Shown here: positions 15,473 to 31,656 of the stretch, piece by piece
How positions within the stretch are numbered: position 1 is the stretch's first letter
Layout: every line of letters begins with the position of its first letter
NCBI GenBank assembly: GCA_040905475.1
Contig: JBBDRM010000166.1
Coordinates: forward strand, 28,642 to 70,843
Reading direction: 5' to 3'
From: Actinomycetota bacterium
GTDB lineage: Bacteria; Actinomycetota; AC-67
DNA: 42,202 nt
Program-made: the position numbers and the translations under genes
Notes under the pieces: model-generated
Told to the model about the DNA's origin: nothing
The model's database searches: none
The model's input: only the letters and a program-made list of their open reading frames with translations

Positions 15473-18400
15473 GTGAGCGGTCAACAGCCCGACGGCGCCG
15501 TCACAGTGCTCTTCACCGACGTCGAAGGCTCGACGGATCTTCGTACCCGCTTCGGCGACGAGCTGGCGGACGAGCTCCTCCGAACGCACGAGGATCTCGT
15601 CCGGGGTCAGGTCGAGCGCCACGGCGGTCGCGAGGTGAAGTCGCTCGGGGACGGGTTCATGGTGGCGTTCGGCTCGCCGCGCAAGGCGATCTCGTGCGCC
15701 GTCGACATCCAGCGGGTCCTCGATGAGCGGAACCGGTCGAGCCCCGGCCGTGAGATCCGCGTCCGCATCGGCATCAACACCGGCGAGGTGTCCGACGTCG
15801 CCGGCGACTTGATCGGGGCGGCCGTCAACGCGGCTGCGAGGATCGCAGGCAAGGCACGCGGCGGGCAGATCCTGATCGCGAACGTCGTGAAGGATCTCGC
15901 CGGCGTCCGTCCCGACCTGTCGTACATCGACCGCGGGTTGTACTGGCTCAAGGGATTCCCCGAGCGCTGGCGCCTGTACGAGATCCTGCGCCGTGCCCCC
16001 GGACCGGTCGAGGAGCTCACGGCACCGACCCTCGGGAAAACGCGCTTCGTCGGGCGCGACACCGAACGCGCGGATCTTCGCCGGTTCGTCGAAGGCGCAG
16101 CGGCCGGTCGCGGCGCACTCGTCATGATCGGTGGCGAGCCGGGCGTCGGGAAGACCCGCATCACCGAGGAGGTGGCCGAGGAAGCCGCCGCACGCGGGAT
16201 GATGGCTTTGGTCGGGCATTGCCAGGAGACGGAGGCTCCCCTTCCGTACGCGCCGGTCGTCGAGATCCTCGAAGCGACGTTGCGGAGCGTGTCTCGCGAG
16301 ACGCTGCTGGAGGCCTTCGGAGACGCGGCGCCCGAGCTCGCTCGCATCCTGCCGGAGCTGCGGAGGATCTTCCCCGATCTTCCCCCGCCGCTCGATCTGC
16401 CCCCCGAACAAGAGCGCCGCTATCTGTTCAACTGCTTCACCGAATTCCTCGAGCGGGCCAGCCATCTGCAACCGCTGCTGTTCGTGCTCGAGGACGTTCA
16501 CTGGGCCGATGAGTCGACCTTGCTCTTGCTCCAGCACCTCGCCGAGCGTCTGGCGAACATGCAGATCCTCATGCTCGCCACGTACCGGGACGTCGAGCTG
16601 GACGTCGAACGGCCGCTCGCCCGTCGGCTCGAGGAGCTCGTGCGTCGGCGGCTGGCCCACCGCGTCAGCTTGAACCGCCTGCCCAAGCACGGCGTCGGCG
16701 ACATGATCGGCGCGCTCGCCGGACGCGTGGCTCCCGAGTCGCTCGTGGACGCGGTATATGAGGAGACCGAGGGGAACTGCTTCTTCGTCGAGGAGGTCTT
16801 CCAGCACCTCCACGAGGAGGGAAAGCTATTCGATCAGGCCGGCAACTGGCGGACCGAGGTTCAGGTCGGCGAGATCGACGTGCCGGAAGGCGTGCGACTG
16901 GTGCTCGGGCGGCGGCTCTCGCGCCTTTCCGAGGGCGCCCGCCGGGCGCTTTCCGCCGCGGCTGTGATCGGGCGCAACTTCACCTACGAGCTTGCCGAAG
17001 CGGTCGACGAGGTCGGCGGCGACACCCTGCTCGACGCGGTCGAGGAGGCCCAGCGCGCTAACCTGTTGACCTGGTCCGAGGATCCGCTGCGTCCGCGTTT
17101 CTCCTTCGCGCACGAGTTGATCCGTCAGACGCTCCTGACGAACCTCGCGCTTCCGCGCCGGCAGCGGCTCCACCTGCGCATCGCCGAGGCGATCGAGCGC
17201 GTCTACGCGCGCGATCTCGAGCCGCACGTCGCGGACCTCGCCCACCACCTCTACCAAGCGGGCGCGGCTGCGGATCCCCATAAGGCGGTCGGCTTTCTCT
17301 CGCTGGCGGCTCACCGCGCGATGGAGGGCGCCGCCTTCGAGGAAGCGCTGCGCGCCTACGAACGCGCGCTCTCCCTACAAGACCCAGGCGACGTGAGTAC
17401 CCGCGCCGATCTGCTGGTCCGCCTCGGGTTCGCGCAGCGGAGCCTCGGTCGCACTGAGGGCGCGCTCGCGTCCTGGCGCGAAGCGCTCGACCTGTACGCG
17501 GAACTCGACGACATCGCGGCCGCGACGAGCGTCTGCTGGGACATCAGCTATCAGCTCGGCTGGGCCGGACGTCCCATCGAAGCGATGGAGTTCACCCAGC
17601 GCGGACTCGTCGCGGCAGGCGACGCCCGTACGCCGGTGCGCGGCATGCTGCTGTCTTCGGCCGGCGCGTTCGTTGGCTTCCTCGGCGATTACGTCGGAGG
17701 GGCGGAGATGATCGACGAGGCGCTCTCCATCGCCGAAGAGACGCACGACCTTGGGCTCGAGAGCTACGCTCGTCTGGCACGAGGGATCTTGAATTACTCG
17801 CACGCGGAACTCGAGGTCCTGCGTCGGGACGGGCCGGAAGCGACGGAGCTCCTCCGAGAGCACGGGTCTGCCTGGGACCTCTCCAGCTATCTGTCGCTGC
17901 TGGAGTTCGCCTACTTTGCGACCGGTCACGTCGCCGCCTCGATTCCCGTGCACGAGGAGCTGGAGCCGCTGGCGTCACGGATCGGCAACCAAGTTCCCTA
18001 TCTGCTCACGCGGCGGGGAGAAGCGATCCGCGCGCTCATGTCGTCCGGCGACCTGGACGCGTGGGAGGAGTTCTCCCGATGGGATCTGGAATTCTGTCGC
18101 AGCCGCGAGCTCGAGTGGATCAGCAATTCCTTCGGTTTTCTGTCCGGCATCGCGTTCTACCGAGGACGCTGGGAGGAAGCGCTCGAGCTGGCTCGGGAAG
18201 CGAACGCGACCGAGCCTCCAGGGGGCTTCAACGGATGGGCGTGGCCGCTCGTGTTCCACACGCTCGCGCACCTCGGTCGCCGAGACGATGCGCTCGCGCT
18301 CCTGGAAGAGGACCGTGTCCGGCTTCCGGCGGGACGGCCGGCGTCGTGGGGAGCCTGGGCGATCCTGCACGGGGCCGTCGAAGGTTTGATGATCCTCGGC

Positions 18401-18766
18401 GAGCACGAACGGGCAGCCGATCTCTATCCGCTCGTCGTGGAGTCGCTGAATACCGGAACCGTTTACCTCAAGGTCTACAACATCCGTCTCTGCCATACGG
18501 TCGCCGGTCTGGCGGCCCACGGAGCGCGGGACTGGTCGAGATCCGAAGCACACTTCCGTGAAGCTCTGCGGTTGGCCGAGACGCTCCCGGTCCGGATCGA
18601 GCAGGCGGACGCGCGTCGCTACTTCGCCGCCATGCTCGCCGAGCGGAATGGTGACGGTGATCGGGAAGAGGCGCGCGCGATGCTCGAGGAAGCGCTGGAC
18701 CTGTACCGCTCGCTGGGCATGCCGCGTCACGTCGAGATGGCTGAGGAGCAGTTGAAGGGCCTTTAG
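15473..18766 (+). CDS. class III adenylate cyclase fused to an AAA/STAND ATPase and TPR region
   Basis: This 1097-residue regulator has three parts. Residues about 8-165 are a class III cyclase: metal aspartates Asp16 (FTDVEGST) and Asp60 (SLGDGF), adenine-selecting Lys56 and Asp112, and transition-state Asn119 and Arg123 (VNAAARIAG). All are present, so ATP cyclisation is likely. Residues about 190-450 form a STAND-type ATPase with Walker A GEPGVGKT (221-228) and Walker B LLFVLEDVHWAD (335-346). The rest is TPR-like helical repeats. No DNA-binding domain follows. Cyclase activity would be gated by ATP and ligand binding at the repeats. The GTG start follows GGGGAG by 5 bases. A Crp regulator and a peptidase with two cyclic-nucleotide domains are encoded 8-15 kb downstream. 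Confidence 0.9.
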   Translation: MSGQQPDGAVTVLFTDVEGSTDLRTRFGDELADELLRTHEDLVRGQVERHGGREVKSLGDGFMVAFGSPRKAISCAVDIQRVLDERNRSSPGREIRVRIGINTGEVSDVAGDLIGAAVNAAARIAGKARGGQILIANVVKDLAGVRPDLSYIDRGLYWLKGFPERWRLYEILRRAPGPVEELTAPTLGKTRFVGRDTERADLRRFVEGAAAGRGALVMIGGEPGVGKTRITEEVAEEAAARGMMALVGHCQETEAPLPYAPVVEILEATLRSVSRETLLEAFGDAAPELARILPELRRIFPDLPPPLDLPPEQERRYLFNCFTEFLERASHLQPLLFVLEDVHWADESTLLLLQHLAERLANMQILMLATYRDVELDVERPLARRLEELVRRRLAHRVSLNRLPKHGVGDMIGALAGRVAPESLVDAVYEETEGNCFFVEEVFQHLHEEGKLFDQAGNWRTEVQVGEIDVPEGVRLVLGRRLSRLSEGARRALSAAAVIGRNFTYELAEAVDEVGGDTLLDAVEEAQRANLLTWSEDPLRPRFSFAHELIRQTLLTNLALPRRQRLHLRIAEAIERVYARDLEPHVADLAHHLYQAGAAADPHKAVGFLSLAAHRAMEGAAFEEALRAYERALSLQDPGDVSTRADLLVRLGFAQRSLGRTEGALASWREALDLYAELDDIAAATSVCWDISYQLGWAGRPIEAMEFTQRGLVAAGDARTPVRGMLLSSAGAFVGFLGDYVGGAEMIDEALSIAEETHDLGLESYARLARGILNYSHAELEVLRRDGPEATELLREHGSAWDLSSYLSLLEFAYFATGHVAASIPVHEELEPLASRIGNQVPYLLTRRGEAIRALMSSGDLDAWEEFSRWDLEFCRSRELEWISNSFGFLSGIAFYRGRWEEALELAREANATEPPGGFNGWAWPLVFHTLAHLGRRDDALALLEEDRVRLPAGRPASWGAWAILHGAVEGLMILGEHERAADLYPLVVESLNTGTVYLKVYNIRLCHTVAGLAAHGARDWSRSEAHFREALRLAETLPVRIEQADARRYFAAMLAERNGDGDREEARAMLEEALDLYRSLGMPRHVEMAEEQLKGL

Positions 18767-26902: not shown

Positions 26903-27553
26903 CTATCGGGCGCGCCGTTGCAGTGATTCCGGGTCGACGATGTCGATCCGGCCGCGCCCGATCGTAACGATCCCGGCCTCCTGCGCCTCGCCGAGCACGC
27001 GGTTCACCGTGGCCCTCGAGGTTCCCGCGAGGTGAGCGAGGTCCTCTTGCGTCAGCGGCACGACCGTGCCGGGCGCGTTCGCTCCGTAGATGCGAGAGAG
27101 GTCGTTCAGACGGCGGAGGACGCGTTTGTCCGCGGGGATGTACAGCGCCTCGAGCACCTGCTCGGAAAGGCGCCGAACCTGCGCGCCCAACACGCCTGCG
27201 ACGAACGACTCCACGGATGGATGCTCGCGCTTGAGCGCGTCGAACTCCTCCCGATGGATCGTCACCGTCTCGGTTTGCTCGATCGCCGTCACCGTCGCCG
27301 TTCGGGTCGTAGGGCCCAGGAGTGCGAGCTCGCCGAAGAAGTCGCCGGGACCGAGGATGGCGAGCGTGGCGACCTCCCCGAGCAGGGTGGTGACGCGGAC
27401 GGCCACCCGGCCTTTGGCGATCAGATGGAGGGTGTCGCCGGGGTCGCCCTCGTGGAACACGACTTCACCCCGGGCGAAACGCCGGAGCCGCCCCGCCGCA
27501 AGGACGCGGCGGCGCGGCTCCTCCGGTATCCCGTCCAACAGGGGCCACTCCAT
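26903..27553 (-). CDS. Crp/Fnr-family transcription regulator
   Basis: This 216-residue protein has an N-terminal cyclic-nucleotide domain (FARGEVVFHEGDPGDTLHLIAKG) with the phosphate-binding cassette FFGELALLGPTTRTATV. A dimerisation helix follows, then a C-terminal helix-turn-helix (LTQEDLAHLAGTSRATVNRVLGEAQEAGIV). The Glu and Arg of the cassette are present, so cAMP binding is plausible. It has no cysteines arranged as in Fnr. It lies 10 bp after a 79-residue protein gene and is probably co-transcribed. A cyclase is encoded 8 kb upstream on the map, but linkage is inference. Confidence 0.87.
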   Translation of the reverse strand: MEWPLLDGIPEEPRRRVLAAGRLRRFARGEVVFHEGDPGDTLHLIAKGRVAVRVTTLLGEVATLAILGPGDFFGELALLGPTTRTATVTAIEQTETVTIHREEFDALKREHPSVESFVAGVLGAQVRRLSEQVLEALYIPADKRVLRRLNDLSRIYGANAPGTVVPLTQEDLAHLAGTSRATVNRVLGEAQEAGIVTIGRGRIDIVDPESLQRRAR

Positions 27554-27563
27554 GGCCTGAGTG

Positions 27564-27803
27564 TCAGCACGGGCGGTTCGTCGCAGTCAATTGACCCTTG
27601 GCGAACCAGCGGCGGTAGGCCGCCACGGGCGCCGGCCGGAACCCGCGGATCGCGGCGACGAGGCCGACGATCCGAGAGGGGCTGCGGTTGGCGCGACGCG
27701 CCGCGCGGGCCTCCTTGACGGTGCGGGCGTGAGCCGCCTCGGCGTGGAACTGCTGGATGCGCTGCTCCGCCAGAGCCTGCTGCATGCTCGGGTACCCGTT
27801 CAT
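27564..27803 (-). CDS. small basic protein of unknown function upstream of the Crp gene
   Basis: This 79-residue protein has a helical, Gln/Ala/Arg-rich first half (MQQALAEQRIQQFHAEAAHARTVKEARAARRANR), then a more hydrophobic stretch (IVGLVAAIRGFRP) and a basic end. AAGGAGGAGC lies just before the ATG, which is strong support for translation. The short gap to the Crp gene suggests one operon. I do not recognise the family. Short, helical, positively charged proteins of this kind in actinobacteria are often uncharacterised. Confidence 0.6.
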   Translation of the reverse strand: MNGYPSMQQALAEQRIQQFHAEAAHARTVKEARAARRANRSPSRIVGLVAAIRGFRPAPVAAYRRWFAKGQLTATNRPC

Positions 27804-27947
27804 CGCTCCTCCTTCCGAACCTCTCCGAACTTCCTGACGCGAGTCTGGCTCGAAGGAAGGGGTCCGGTCGTTCACCGAAGCGACGGTGCGGATGTAAAGC
27901 TCGTGACACAACGTGGCTGGGCTCGAAGGCGGGAACGGACAAACGTT

Positions 27948-27999: not shown

Positions 28000-28125
28000 T
28001 TACAGCGCGCGGGTCTTGAGCGCGCGGGTCTTGGCCGCGGTGCGCTTGCTGGCACGCTTGGTCGACGTGCGCTTGGCGGCGGCCTTCTTGGCCGGGGCCC
28101 TCTTCGCTGGCTTGCGAGCTGCCAT
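28000..28125 (-). CDS. 41-residue Lys/Ala-rich histone-H1-like protein
   Basis: This 41-residue protein is made almost wholly of Lys, Arg, Ala, Pro and Thr in AKK/AKR repeats (KPAKRAPAKKAAAKR, then TSTKRASKRTAAKTR), like the tails of bacterial histone H1-like and HupB-type proteins. It probably binds DNA or RNA non-specifically. AGGAGGTGG lies 7-8 bases before the ATG, and a terminator follows the stop. It could be a tail without a body, but the good ribosome site supports it as a separate mini-protein. It lies 75 bp after the cysteine-rich gene. Confidence 0.65.
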   Translation of the reverse strand: MAARKPAKRAPAKKAAAKRTSTKRASKRTAAKTRALKTRAL

Positions 28126-28200: not shown

Positions 28201-28416
28201 TCAATCGAGCTCGGCGATATCCACGGGGTCCGGCCGGGGCGTGCAGATCCCACAGAAAAGCGCGTCTTCGACGACGAGCACCTTCATGGAATCGCCGGTT
28301 TTCGAGCGGTACAGATCGAGGATGTAGGGGTGCTCTTGAGCGTGATCCTCGCAGAGCCCCCGCCCGCAGAATCGACAGACACCGAGCGCGGCCTTCCGAC
28401 AGTGCCAGCAGTCCAC
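28201..28416 (-). CDS. small cysteine-rich zinc-binding protein, DUF2180-like
   Basis: This 71-residue protein has ten potential zinc ligands: Cys3, His5, Cys6, Cys14, Cys17, Cys22, His25, His29, Cys55 and Cys58. The pattern CWHCRKAALGVCRFCGRGLCEDH resembles the DUF2180/B-box-like small proteins, with CGIC near the C-terminus. The GTG start follows the stop of the M50 gene by one base (TGAC-GTG) and GGGAG lies 8 bases upstream, so it is tightly coupled to that gene. Its role is unknown; coupling suggests it works with the peptidase. Confidence 0.7.
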   Translation of the reverse strand: MDCWHCRKAALGVCRFCGRGLCEDHAQEHPYILDLYRSKTGDSMKVLVVEDALFCGICTPRPDPVDIAELD

Positions 28417-28417
28417 G

Positions 28418-30607
28418 TCAGTGCTCCCACTCGCGGCTGAGCGTCCTCGACGGGGCGAGTCTACCCTTGCGGAACGACTTGGCCAGCACACGATCGAACG
28501 CTTTCCGCTCGAGCTCCAACGCACGGACGGGAGTCACCGCCCGGATCGTCGCCGTGCGAGGCTCACGCATCAGGAGCGCGACCTCGCCGAAGTAGTCGCC
28601 GGCTCCGAGCCGGCCCTTGCGGCGGCGATCCTCGATGACGTCTACCTGGCCCGAGGCGATCACGTAGAACGCGTCGGCGTCGTCCCCCTGCTTCACGATC
28701 CGCTCTCCGGGCTTGAAGCTGTGCCAAGAGGCCCCCTGCAGCAGGCGCGACGCGTCGGCGTCGTCGAGCGACGCGAACGGTGACAAGGATCGCAGGTCCG
28801 CCGCCGAGATCAGGCCGGCCCGGACGTCGTCCGCGATGTCGATATTGTTCGCGAGGGCGCGATCGAAGGTCCCCTTGTCGATAACGAACAGCTCCGAGGG
28901 CTCCACCGCGCGCACCGTCGCCGTGCGCGTCGTCCCCTCGAGCAGCGCGATCTCGCCGAACGAACGGCCGCGCTCGCGGCGGCGGATGGATCGTTCGGTG
29001 CCGTCCGCTTCCGTGTGGCTAACCTCGAGCGTGCCCGAGCGGACGACGTAGAACGCGTCCCCACGCTCACCCTGCTTGATGACGACCTGCCCTCGGGGAA
29101 CCCGGATCAGGCGAACGTGTTCGCCGATCTCCTGGACCGCCTCGTCGTCGAGCGGGCCGGCGAGCGGCAGATCGCGGAACAGGCTCACGGCTTCTGCTCG
29201 CCACTTCCGCTCGGTCGCCCGGCGCGCGATCCGAAGCACAGGCCGCGCACGGCGGATCCCGGCGCGGATCAGCCGGATGACACCGCGAAGCAGCGGCGCG
29301 AGCACCAACCCCACCAGGATCGAGATCAAGATCCGGGATACCCAGCCGCCCTGCCAGGCGCTTCGGATCGCCTGGCTGAGGATCTTTGACCAGAACAGGG
29401 CCGAAAGGGCGACCGCCAGCACCGTGAAGAGGACGGCGAAGATCCCGTATCCCGTGTACATGCGCTCCTGGCGAGAGAGGCGCTCGCGGCGTCGCAACTT
29501 GCCGAAAAGGTCGTCCCGCAGGAACTCGAACGAACGCTCTCTGAGGTTCATCTCCTCGAGCGCGTCCATCATGATGTAGTAGCCGTCGAGCCGGAGGAAC
29601 GGCACGAGGTTCTGCGCGATGGCGATGTACGACAGCACGGCGTAGCGGAACAGGAACAAGGTCACCGGGCTCGCCGGGAGCGAAAGCGCTAGTAAGGTCG
29701 CGATCCCGCCGATGACCGTCTCGATGTAGGGGCCGGCGCCGGCGGCCGCCATGCGTCCACGCCTCGGCGCCATCCAGGTGTCGGTCGTCTCGATGAAGAA
29801 CGCCGGCATACCGAGATAGAGCATGAACCCCGCCGCATTGACCCGGCGGCCGGCGTGGATCGTGGCGAGTGCGTGCCCCGACTCGTGCACGAAGGTCGAT
29901 ACGTAGTCGGCGACGTAGAGCAGCCCGACGCTCGCGGCGGCCGACTCCCCGATCAACGTGTACTTGTGTTGGCCGAGCAGAACGAAGAACGCGATCATGC
30001 CGACGATCGCGACGACCGTGCCGGCGATCACGACCGGCTTGACGAAGAAGAAGCGGCCGCCCCAGCGGTACATAGCATCGAAGAAGCGATGTGAGCCGGG
30101 GAATTCGATGCGTCGTGTCGCCGCGAACTCACGCATCCAGCCCGGCAGCGGGAGCCTCCGCTTCCGTCTCTTCTTGGCCTCCATCACGTTATCGAGGACG
30201 GGCTCATAGCGAACGTCGAGGAATCCCCCACGGAAGAGCTCATCCACGAGATCGGCGACCGACGAAAGCTCGAACGCGCCCGATTCCCGGAACTTGCCGA
30301 CGACCAGGTCCTTGACCGTGCGGCTCCCGTCCATCTGCACGACGAGCGCGCGCTCGTCGGCCGTCAGCCGGACGTAGTTGGGTCCGATCGGCGTCTTAAC
30401 CATCGTGTAGCTCTCGCCGTCGCGGCGCACGAAGTCGAGTATCTCGAGGTCGTCACGCAGCCTCGGAAGGAAGAACGCTGGATTGACCGCCCGCTCTATC
30501 CGGTCCCAGGCGTGGATCGAAGCGGCGCGGCGCCGGCGACCTCGGACTCGCCGGCGGATCTCCGCATGGACGCCGCCGAGCGGCGGAAGTGTCTTCGCCT
30601 TCTCCAT
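28418..30607 (-). CDS. membrane M50-type metallopeptidase with PqqD-like head and two cyclic-nucleotide domains
   Basis: This 729-residue protein combines three modules. Residues about 50-135 look like a PqqD-type winged-helix domain (VRLTADERALVVQMDGSRTVKDLV, then LVDELFRGGFLD). Residues about 185-445 are a membrane M50-like peptidase: HESGH at 241-245 gives two zinc ligands and the base, and LRLDG at 338-342 supplies the Asp. There are six or more helices. Residues about 470-590 and 610-715 are two cyclic-nucleotide-binding domains with cassettes FGEIALLEGTTRTATV and FGEVALLMREPRTATI, keeping the key Glu and Arg. Proteolysis gated by cAMP or cGMP is a reasonable inference. TAGAGT (complement of 30617-30622) lies 9 bases before the ATG. 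It leads an operon with the cysteine-rich and histone-like genes. Confidence 0.85.
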   Translation of the reverse strand: MEKAKTLPPLGGVHAEIRRRVRGRRRRAASIHAWDRIERAVNPAFFLPRLRDDLEILDFVRRDGESYTMVKTPIGPNYVRLTADERALVVQMDGSRTVKDLVVGKFRESGAFELSSVADLVDELFRGGFLDVRYEPVLDNVMEAKKRRKRRLPLPGWMREFAATRRIEFPGSHRFFDAMYRWGGRFFFVKPVVIAGTVVAIVGMIAFFVLLGQHKYTLIGESAAASVGLLYVADYVSTFVHESGHALATIHAGRRVNAAGFMLYLGMPAFFIETTDTWMAPRRGRMAAAGAGPYIETVIGGIATLLALSLPASPVTLFLFRYAVLSYIAIAQNLVPFLRLDGYYIMMDALEEMNLRERSFEFLRDDLFGKLRRRERLSRQERMYTGYGIFAVLFTVLAVALSALFWSKILSQAIRSAWQGGWVSRILISILVGLVLAPLLRGVIRLIRAGIRRARPVLRIARRATERKWRAEAVSLFRDLPLAGPLDDEAVQEIGEHVRLIRVPRGQVVIKQGERGDAFYVVRSGTLEVSHTEADGTERSIRRRERGRSFGEIALLEGTTRTATVRAVEPSELFVIDKGTFDRALANNIDIADDVRAGLISAADLRSLSPFASLDDADASRLLQGASWHSFKPGERIVKQGDDADAFYVIASGQVDVIEDRRRKGRLGAGDYFGEVALLMREPRTATIRAVTPVRALELERKAFDRVLAKSFRKGRLAPSRTLSREWEH

Positions 30608-30682
30608 CCGGACGGGACTCTACGGGAGGAGAGGCCACGGTGGAAGGGCAAAGACGGCCGGGAGATGTCGTACCCTACGGAG

Positions 30683-31264
30683 ATGCCGAGCCGACGAACG
30701 GCGACCCAATCCGAGCGGAAAACCGCGAGCGACGACGAGCTCGTCGCCGCATGTCTGGCGGGCGATGAGCATTCCTGGGTCGAGCTGATCTCGCGCTACG
30801 CCGCGTACATCTACGCGATCGCGACGCGCGCGTTCGGGCTGCCGCCCGCAGCAGCGGAGGAGGTCTTCCAGGACGCCTGCATCCGCGTGTATGAGGGCCT
30901 GGCGGGTTTCTCGGGCCGCGGAGAGTTCCGTTCCTGGCTCCGCGCCGTCGTCCTGAGCGCCGCGCGGGAGCACCTGCGCAAGGAGGCGCGCAGACCCGAG
31001 GTCGCCCACGAGGTCGACCCCGGGACCGAAGCGGAGCTGGAGGAGCTGGAAACCGCGCTCGACGTCAGGGCGGCGGTCCTCGCCCTCGGCGAGCCGTGCA
31101 ACGGCACCATCGGCCTGTACTTCTTCCGAAACCTCACCCAGGCCGAGGTCGCCGAAAGCCTCGGCGTCCCGCCGGGGACGGTCGCAGCGCGGCTCAGCCG
31201 CTGTCTGAAGCGGCTTCGCGACGCCCTGCAAGAGTCCGGGCCCCCTGAGGCGTCCAGAGGGTAA
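30683..31264 (+). CDS. ECF-family RNA polymerase sigma factor
   Basis: This 193-residue sigma factor has region 2 at about residues 35-105 (AEEVFQDACIRVYEGLAGFSGRGEFRSWLRAVVLSAAREHL) and region 4 at about 130-185 (LGEPCNGTIGLYFFRNLTQAEVAESLGVPPGTVAARLSRCLKRLR). A long acidic linker lies between them. The ATG at 30683 is chosen because TACCCT (30671-30676) ends 6 bases before it, the spacing of a leaderless start; ATG 30665 is an alternative. The frame back to 30512 overlaps the M50 gene. The anti-sigma-like gene follows in 2 bp. It is divergent from the M50 peptidase operon. Confidence 0.85.
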   Translation: MPSRRTATQSERKTASDDELVAACLAGDEHSWVELISRYAAYIYAIATRAFGLPPAAAEEVFQDACIRVYEGLAGFSGRGEFRSWLRAVVLSAAREHLRKEARRPEVAHEVDPGTEAELEELETALDVRAAVLALGEPCNGTIGLYFFRNLTQAEVAESLGVPPGTVAARLSRCLKRLRDALQESGPPEASRG

Positions 31265-31266
31265 CG

Positions 31267-31656
31267 ATGGCTTCCGACCACCTTTCCGACGCCGAGCTAG
31301 CCCGGCTCGCCCTGACCGCGGGCAAGCATCGGCATCTCGCGGCTTGCGCGGCCTGCGCGGCCGGGTTCGAGCAGTTCCGGGTCTTGATCGACCGGCTGCG
31401 AGCCCTCCCCGACCCACCGGATCGTCTGCTCGAAGCCGCCACGGACTTCTATCGGCGCCACCAGCGGCTGGAGGCGCTGCTCGAACGGCTCACGGAGGAC
31501 GGGGCGCTCCGGGCGAAGGCACGCAGCAAGCCGGAGCATGTGCTCCGCGAAGCCGGGCTCGAGCCGGTTCCCGAGCTCGTCGAGGCTCTTCGATCGCAAG
31601 GCCGCGAGTCGGGCGCCGTCGCCCGCCGGATCGCCGCGAAGCACTTCTGGTTGTAA
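31267..31656 (+). CDS. soluble zinc anti-sigma-like protein with a leader-peptide-like C-terminal part
   Basis: This 129-residue protein carries the exact zinc anti-sigma signature His-x3-Cys-x2-Cys (His23, Cys27, Cys30, in HRHLAACAAC), right after an ECF sigma gene, so it probably restrains that factor. It has no membrane helix, so the usual site-2 release route cannot apply. Residues about 70-110 (LEALLERLTEDGALRAKARS, then PEHVLREAGLEPVPELVEAL) resemble Nif11/nitrile-hydratase-type leader peptides of RiPP precursors. This resemblance is by eye only. The C-terminus ends KHFWL. The start has GAGGG 5 bases upstream. Confidence 0.7.
   Translation: MASDHLSDAELARLALTAGKHRHLAACAACAAGFEQFRVLIDRLRALPDPPDRLLEAATDFYRRHQRLEALLERLTEDGALRAKARSKPEHVLREAGLEPVPELVEALRSQGRESGAVARRIAAKHFWL

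Follow-up and report, generated by a model that had tools for sequence, protein, structure and literature searches.

We propose a model in which the protease gene described here belongs to a gene set, conserved across two phyla of bacteria and apparently undescribed, that encodes a nucleotide-gated, RRE-dependent intramembrane peptidase maturing a leader-bearing peptide encoded beside it, a reading that we modestly favour. In this model the cytosolic PqqD-type head of the protease would bind the leader of a small peptide from a neighbouring gene, the candidate substrates being the basic mini-protein in Actinomycetota and, in Chloroflexota, a peptide with an NHLP/Os1348 leader. The M50 core would cut the peptide and release its repeat-rich tail, which would perhaps be exported, the two C-terminal cNMP domains would switch the protease, and the adjacent CRP-family regulator would control the peptide gene. 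With CRP control of the peptide gene and a cNMP switch on the protease, one signal class could therefore govern both supply and processing in most lineages. Proteolysis of peptide-bearing substrates under a nucleotide switch, as predicted in a preliminary description of this DNA, fits the evidence that we read from sequence, namely the domains, the conserved residues, the gene linkage, the leader and tail layout and the CRP boxes of relatives.

The protease gene lies at 28418..30607 on the minus strand of the window, by which we mean the whole stretch of 42,202 nucleotides that was analysed, and its 729-aa product is assigned the architecture RRE(PqqD-like)-M50-cNMP-cNMP by profiles, AF2/Foldseek and an alignment of relatives. 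The zinc-binding HESGH motif occupies residues 241-245 (29873..29887, minus strand), LRLDG stands at residue 338, and the HExxH and LDGY of the M50 core are invariant in 18/18 aligned relatives, including the H, E and H of the zinc motif. The M50-type peptidase proposed earlier is thus borne out by its motifs, and the zinc ligands, whose loss in relatives had been named as grounds for doubt, are instead invariant. The core stays under the curated Pfam cut-offs (PF13398, 21.2 vs 26; PF02163, 14.6 vs 27.2), and the best NCBIfam match of the protein is the daptide intramembrane metalloprotease NF041824 (residues 62-447, E = 3.6e-51), at 174.5 bits under an equivalog cut-off of 300. A second copy of the protease in the source genome (C35) shares 38% identity.

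The C-terminal part carries two cNMP cassettes of the form FGE...RTAT at residues 550 and 673 (FGEIALLEGTTRTATV and FGEVALLMREPRTATI), matched by Pfam cNMP_binding (PF00027) with 164 bits in two stretches (cut-off 27.5), and the key Glu and Arg already remarked upon in both are invariant across the 18 aligned relatives. This invariance, together with the many nucleotide cyclases of the source genome, argues against the possible but rather unlikely reading that the cNMP domains serve as degenerate scaffolds, or have a different ligand such as ppGpp, and that the enzyme acts without cyclic-nucleotide control. That reading draws on a sister locus of Chloroflexota (L031, L033), in which a separate FHA protein is found instead of cNMP, and on HetC, likewise a peptide-processing membrane protein with a cNMP domain, which binds ppGpp and not cAMP (PMC10986499); HetC differs in being a C39 peptidase and ABC exporter with neither M50 nor RRE. 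Because of the HetC precedent, cAMP or cGMP is not established as the ligand of the protease, and the ligands of cNMP domains cannot be read from sequence alone. Paired cNMP domains likewise occur in TIGR03896, a cyclic-nucleotide bacteriocin-transport-associated protein annotated to bacteriocin-type peptide systems, but TIGR03896 is without M50 and the protease scores 67/161 bits on it.

The N-terminal head, taken for the RRE test as residues 29-172 (30092..30523, minus strand) from the alignment, has no Pfam match of its own in the window protease, and PqqD (PF05402) is matched by 7/26 of the relatives' heads (best 6e-9), with some of the others weakly matching a PaaA-like profile. A search of PDB sequences with the head returned PaaA alone at E = 0.1, and therefore fold comparison was used. 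The AF2 model of the head (pLDDT 85) ranked TigE first and PqqD (5sxy) second in Foldseek, with two RREs of lasso peptides, TbiB1 and 6jx3, each solved together with a leader peptide, in the top ten; these comparisons gave probabilities of 0.96-1.00 (0.98-1.0 for 8vpo, 5sxy, 5v1u and 6jx3, with TM (target) of <=0.69), all at E > 1e-3. Three strands and the helices of the model superpose on PqqD and the lasso RREs. From profile and modelled fold together, we take the PqqD-like head suggested by the preliminary description for an RRE fold, a call that is highly but not fully certain. RREs bind precursor leaders, and RiPP pathways are known to employ intramembrane peptidases guided by an RRE.

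Among the latter, the RRE-dependent intramembrane peptidase proposed to remove the leader of daptides, MpaP (NF041824; PMC10036551), likewise has an RRE-type head in front of an M50 core, and the match of the window protease spans the full-length profile. Unlike MpaP, the window protease scores 174 against the cut-off of 300 and has two extra cNMP domains and a zinc partner, and unlike the hydrophobic daptide core the mini-protein is hydrophilic and basic. Neither the MpaB/C/D/M partners nor a daptide precursor were seen among the genes around the window and its relatives, judged by eye rather than by profile, and a daptide assignment was rejected on the NF041824 score and the neighbouring genes. 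The best reading, by analogy, is that the protease would work like the MpaP-type RRE peptidases without being an MpaP ortholog, as the curated cut-off is missed. The M50 enzymes EpeP, TglG and TmoG act on RiPP peptides, and EpeP has been linked to both the production and the export of epipeptides (PMC10885120). EpeP/YydH/LiaK (NF058609) resembles the window protease as an M50 membrane protease acting on a small peptide encoded beside it, but the latter reaches 40.6 bits on this profile against a cut-off of 225, has RRE and cNMP domains fused to it, and is accompanied by no radical-SAM epimerase gene that we could see. Leader binding by RREs, the proposed daptide peptidase, the EpeP link and the cNMP precedent of HetC together make nucleotide-gated, RRE-guided maturation the most economical reading.

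The genomic setting of the protease is conserved. Among 396 Actinomycetota genomes the protease is present in 24, the zinc protein in 21 and both in 19 (Fisher p = 7e-26, genome relatedness uncorrected), and in nearly all genomes with both the two genes are adjacent with a CRP-family gene beside them. The Actinomycetota locus consists of the protease, an eight-ligand zinc protein, a basic mini-protein of 35-53 aa and a CRP-family regulator, so that the conserved neighbourhood which had been suggested as a check is both present and strong. The operon first described comprised the zinc protein and the mini-protein, which stand, and overlooked the CRP gene, the CRP-box arrays of relatives and the RiPP-leader peptides of Chloroflexota.

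The zinc protein (28201..28416, minus strand; 71 aa) starts one base past the protease stop, a coupling that the coordinates confirm. Seven Cys and one His are its predicted ligands: in an alignment of 20 sequences from three phyla the seven Cys are invariant and the His nearly so, and the C-terminus reads C-G-x-C-x-P-[RQ] or a near variant. Its match to DUF2180 in Pfam is under the cut-off (18.9 vs 22.2) and its AF2 model found no PDB match. In two Actinomycetota genomes (G019 and G090) the zinc protein is without an M50 partner and is flanked by a gene for an intramembrane protease of the PrsW family on one side and a winged-helix gene on the other (L142 8473-10213; L143 8701-10348), the PrsW call resting on PF13367 (1.9e-22) in G019 and on similarity to the G019 gene in G090. 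An exclusive pairing with M50 was rejected on these copies and on the more than half of inspected Chloroflexota zinc-protein copies that have no M50 gene at a distance of up to 1.5 kb. A probable role of the zinc protein is that of an adaptor to intramembrane proteases.

The mini-protein of the window (28000..28125, minus strand) is a Lys/Arg-rich protein of 41 aa with a repetitive tail and an upstream AGGAGG Shine-Dalgarno, placed by synteny, by this Shine-Dalgarno and by its relatives as a divergent member of a leader-plus-tail family. In relatives it is a basic protein of 35-53 aa, encoded behind a strong Shine-Dalgarno between the zinc and CRP genes, with a leader KK[IV]xPKxPAxK...ATRVTK, whose second conserved patch is ATRV[TS]K, and then a variable, often repetitive basic tail with repeats such as (RSAT)n, (RDSK)n, RVKRVQ and KVxR. 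Within 3.5 Mb of strands, the start motif KK[IV]xP[KRM] occurs within six codons of a start at these loci only. The family profile matches in 17/396 genomes, 16 of them with the protease (among these G191, outside the set from which the profile was built) and the 17th weak (7e-4); from these searches the family does not appear convincingly away from the protease locus. The window mini-protein lacks the KK[IV]xPK signature and is missed by the profile, though it is syntenic and repetitive.

The preliminary description had called this protein histone-like, a main reading that was rejected after the family alignment, since the family has a leader-plus-variable-tail layout tied to the locus; the label is probably wrong for the family. 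It is unlikely that the mini-protein is a co-regulated nucleoid-associated or RNA-binding protein rather than the substrate, with the protease cutting other peptide-tagged or membrane substrates. The pI of 10-12, weak NCBIfam matches to Rv3852 and to histone-H1-like proteins, and the resemblance of the window copy to a PAKK-type tail would all suit such a role, whereas the family conserves an N-terminal KK[IV]xPK and ATRV[TS]K ahead of a hypervariable tail, is linked to the protease across genomes, and has its slot beside the zinc gene filled in Chloroflexota by leader-bearing peptides, one of which (L195) is acidic with a pI of 4.4.

Control of the putative substrate gene is suggested by the CRP-family regulator (26903..27553, minus strand; cNMP and HTH_Crp_2 by Pfam), which is conserved next to the locus in roughly 17 genomes. 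Between the zinc gene and the mini-protein, 15/18 loci (L127, L128, L129, L131, L017, L018 and nine more) have one to four TGTGA-N6-TCACA-like sites with a usual spacing of 24 bp, and the density of these CRP boxes upstream of the mini-protein (40 sites/4.7 kb) is 82-fold that found elsewhere (30/290 kb). No CRP boxes were found in this interval in the window, its paralog or L019; in the window a lone, weak CRP-box-like site (8 of 10; 27893..27908, no strand assigned) rather than an array stands between the mini-protein and CRP genes. A 79-aa ORF (MNGYPSMQQALAEQRIQQF...) also lies between these two genes (27564-27803, minus strand). The paralogous locus of the source genome (G000:C35; L016, L132) carries a tandem pair of mini-proteins, with several class III cyclases in its vicinity, and 9 kb from it the zinc and CRP genes recur as a partial duplicate. 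The source genome holds 33 class III nucleotide-cyclase domains, one of them within the window at 15473-18766.

In Chloroflexota the zinc protein is present in 50/301 genomes, and the RRE/M50 gene adjoins the zinc gene in 12/30 loci read. An Os1348/NHLP-type-leader peptide is encoded beside the zinc gene in 10 of these 12 protease-zinc loci, a count that leaves out the NHLP gene of L032, which is next to a radical-SAM-like gene and some 4.5 kb away from the protease; six protease-zinc loci reach the NF038399 cut-off of 40 (40.5-65 bits). Several of these leaders are followed by near-perfect tandem-repeat tails: (ARNT)n in L198 (1805-2113), (NSAEAL)n in L195 (1810-2283) and (DTGTV)n in L190 (954-1511). 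A further cNMP/CRP-like gene is present in four loci. The Chloroflexota peptides beside the protease-zinc pair fall within the Os1348/NHLP clan (NF038399; PMC7726476; PMC2887384), in which Os1348 also neighbours a HExxH peptidase, although that protein, Os1350, is a gluzincin and not an RRE-M50, and the mini-proteins of Actinomycetota carry a different leader. In a sister arrangement of Anaerolineae a double-FHA protein takes the place of cNMP domains and is encoded between the zinc and RRE-M50 genes (L031 8492-11176; L033 6707-9466). NHLP-type genes were also observed in Actinomycetota: a second locus type of G148 (L182 1-1923) lines up an NHLP peptide, a separate cNMP protein and RRE-M50, and in G377 three NHLP-type genes adjoin the M50 and zinc genes.

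Cleavage of anti-sigma proteins by M50 enzymes is known, and the window protease has as divergent neighbours an ECF sigma factor gene (30665..31264, plus strand; TIGR02937, 91 bits over cut-off) and a gene for a 129-aa protein (31267..31656, plus strand) with an HxxxCxxC N-terminus, anti-sigma-like by motif only, and an NHLP/Os1348-like segment at about 31462-31596. The latter is the sole NF038399-like match in a scan of the whole source genome and lies less than 1 kb from the protease. It could accordingly be imagined that in the lineage of the window the head reads this NHLP-like segment and a cut frees the ECF sigma factor, which we consider very unlikely: the 129-aa protein was not found in the 59 relatives searched, its NF038399 score (E = 6e-6, 26-28 bits) misses the cut-off of 40, and it has no Pfam anti-sigma match. 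No ECF sigma gene was seen beside the other protease copies. The peptide-maturation reading has points against it of its own, as no tailoring enzyme or exporter is a conserved member of the locus, the mini-protein lacks the hydrophobicity of daptide cores, the window mini-protein is divergent and without a CRP-box array, the NHLP-like protein of the window is under its cut-off, and the Foldseek matches of the head have E > 1e-3.

The system extends further, and is more sharply defined, than the preliminary description had it. To that description the combination looked undescribed, and searches of the literature on the architecture and on the DUF2180 and NHLP combinations likewise returned no description among the papers available. 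We tentatively suggest, with less confidence than for the peptidase itself, that double control of a repeat-tailed peptide by one nucleotide signal, through CRP boxes and fused cNMP domains, the swapping of leader families between phyla, the exchange of cNMP for FHA sensors and a zinc protein shared as adaptor between M50 and PrsW would make up an undescribed maturation system. No RRE-guided intramembrane peptidase with a second-messenger sensor of its own, or with a zinc partner dedicated to it, was found described. As the candidate substrate, switch and regulator are all named by the locus, signal-gated peptide maturation becomes directly testable. Furthermore, the locus can serve to find leader-plus-repeat peptides, both in Chloroflexota and in uncultured Actinomycetota.
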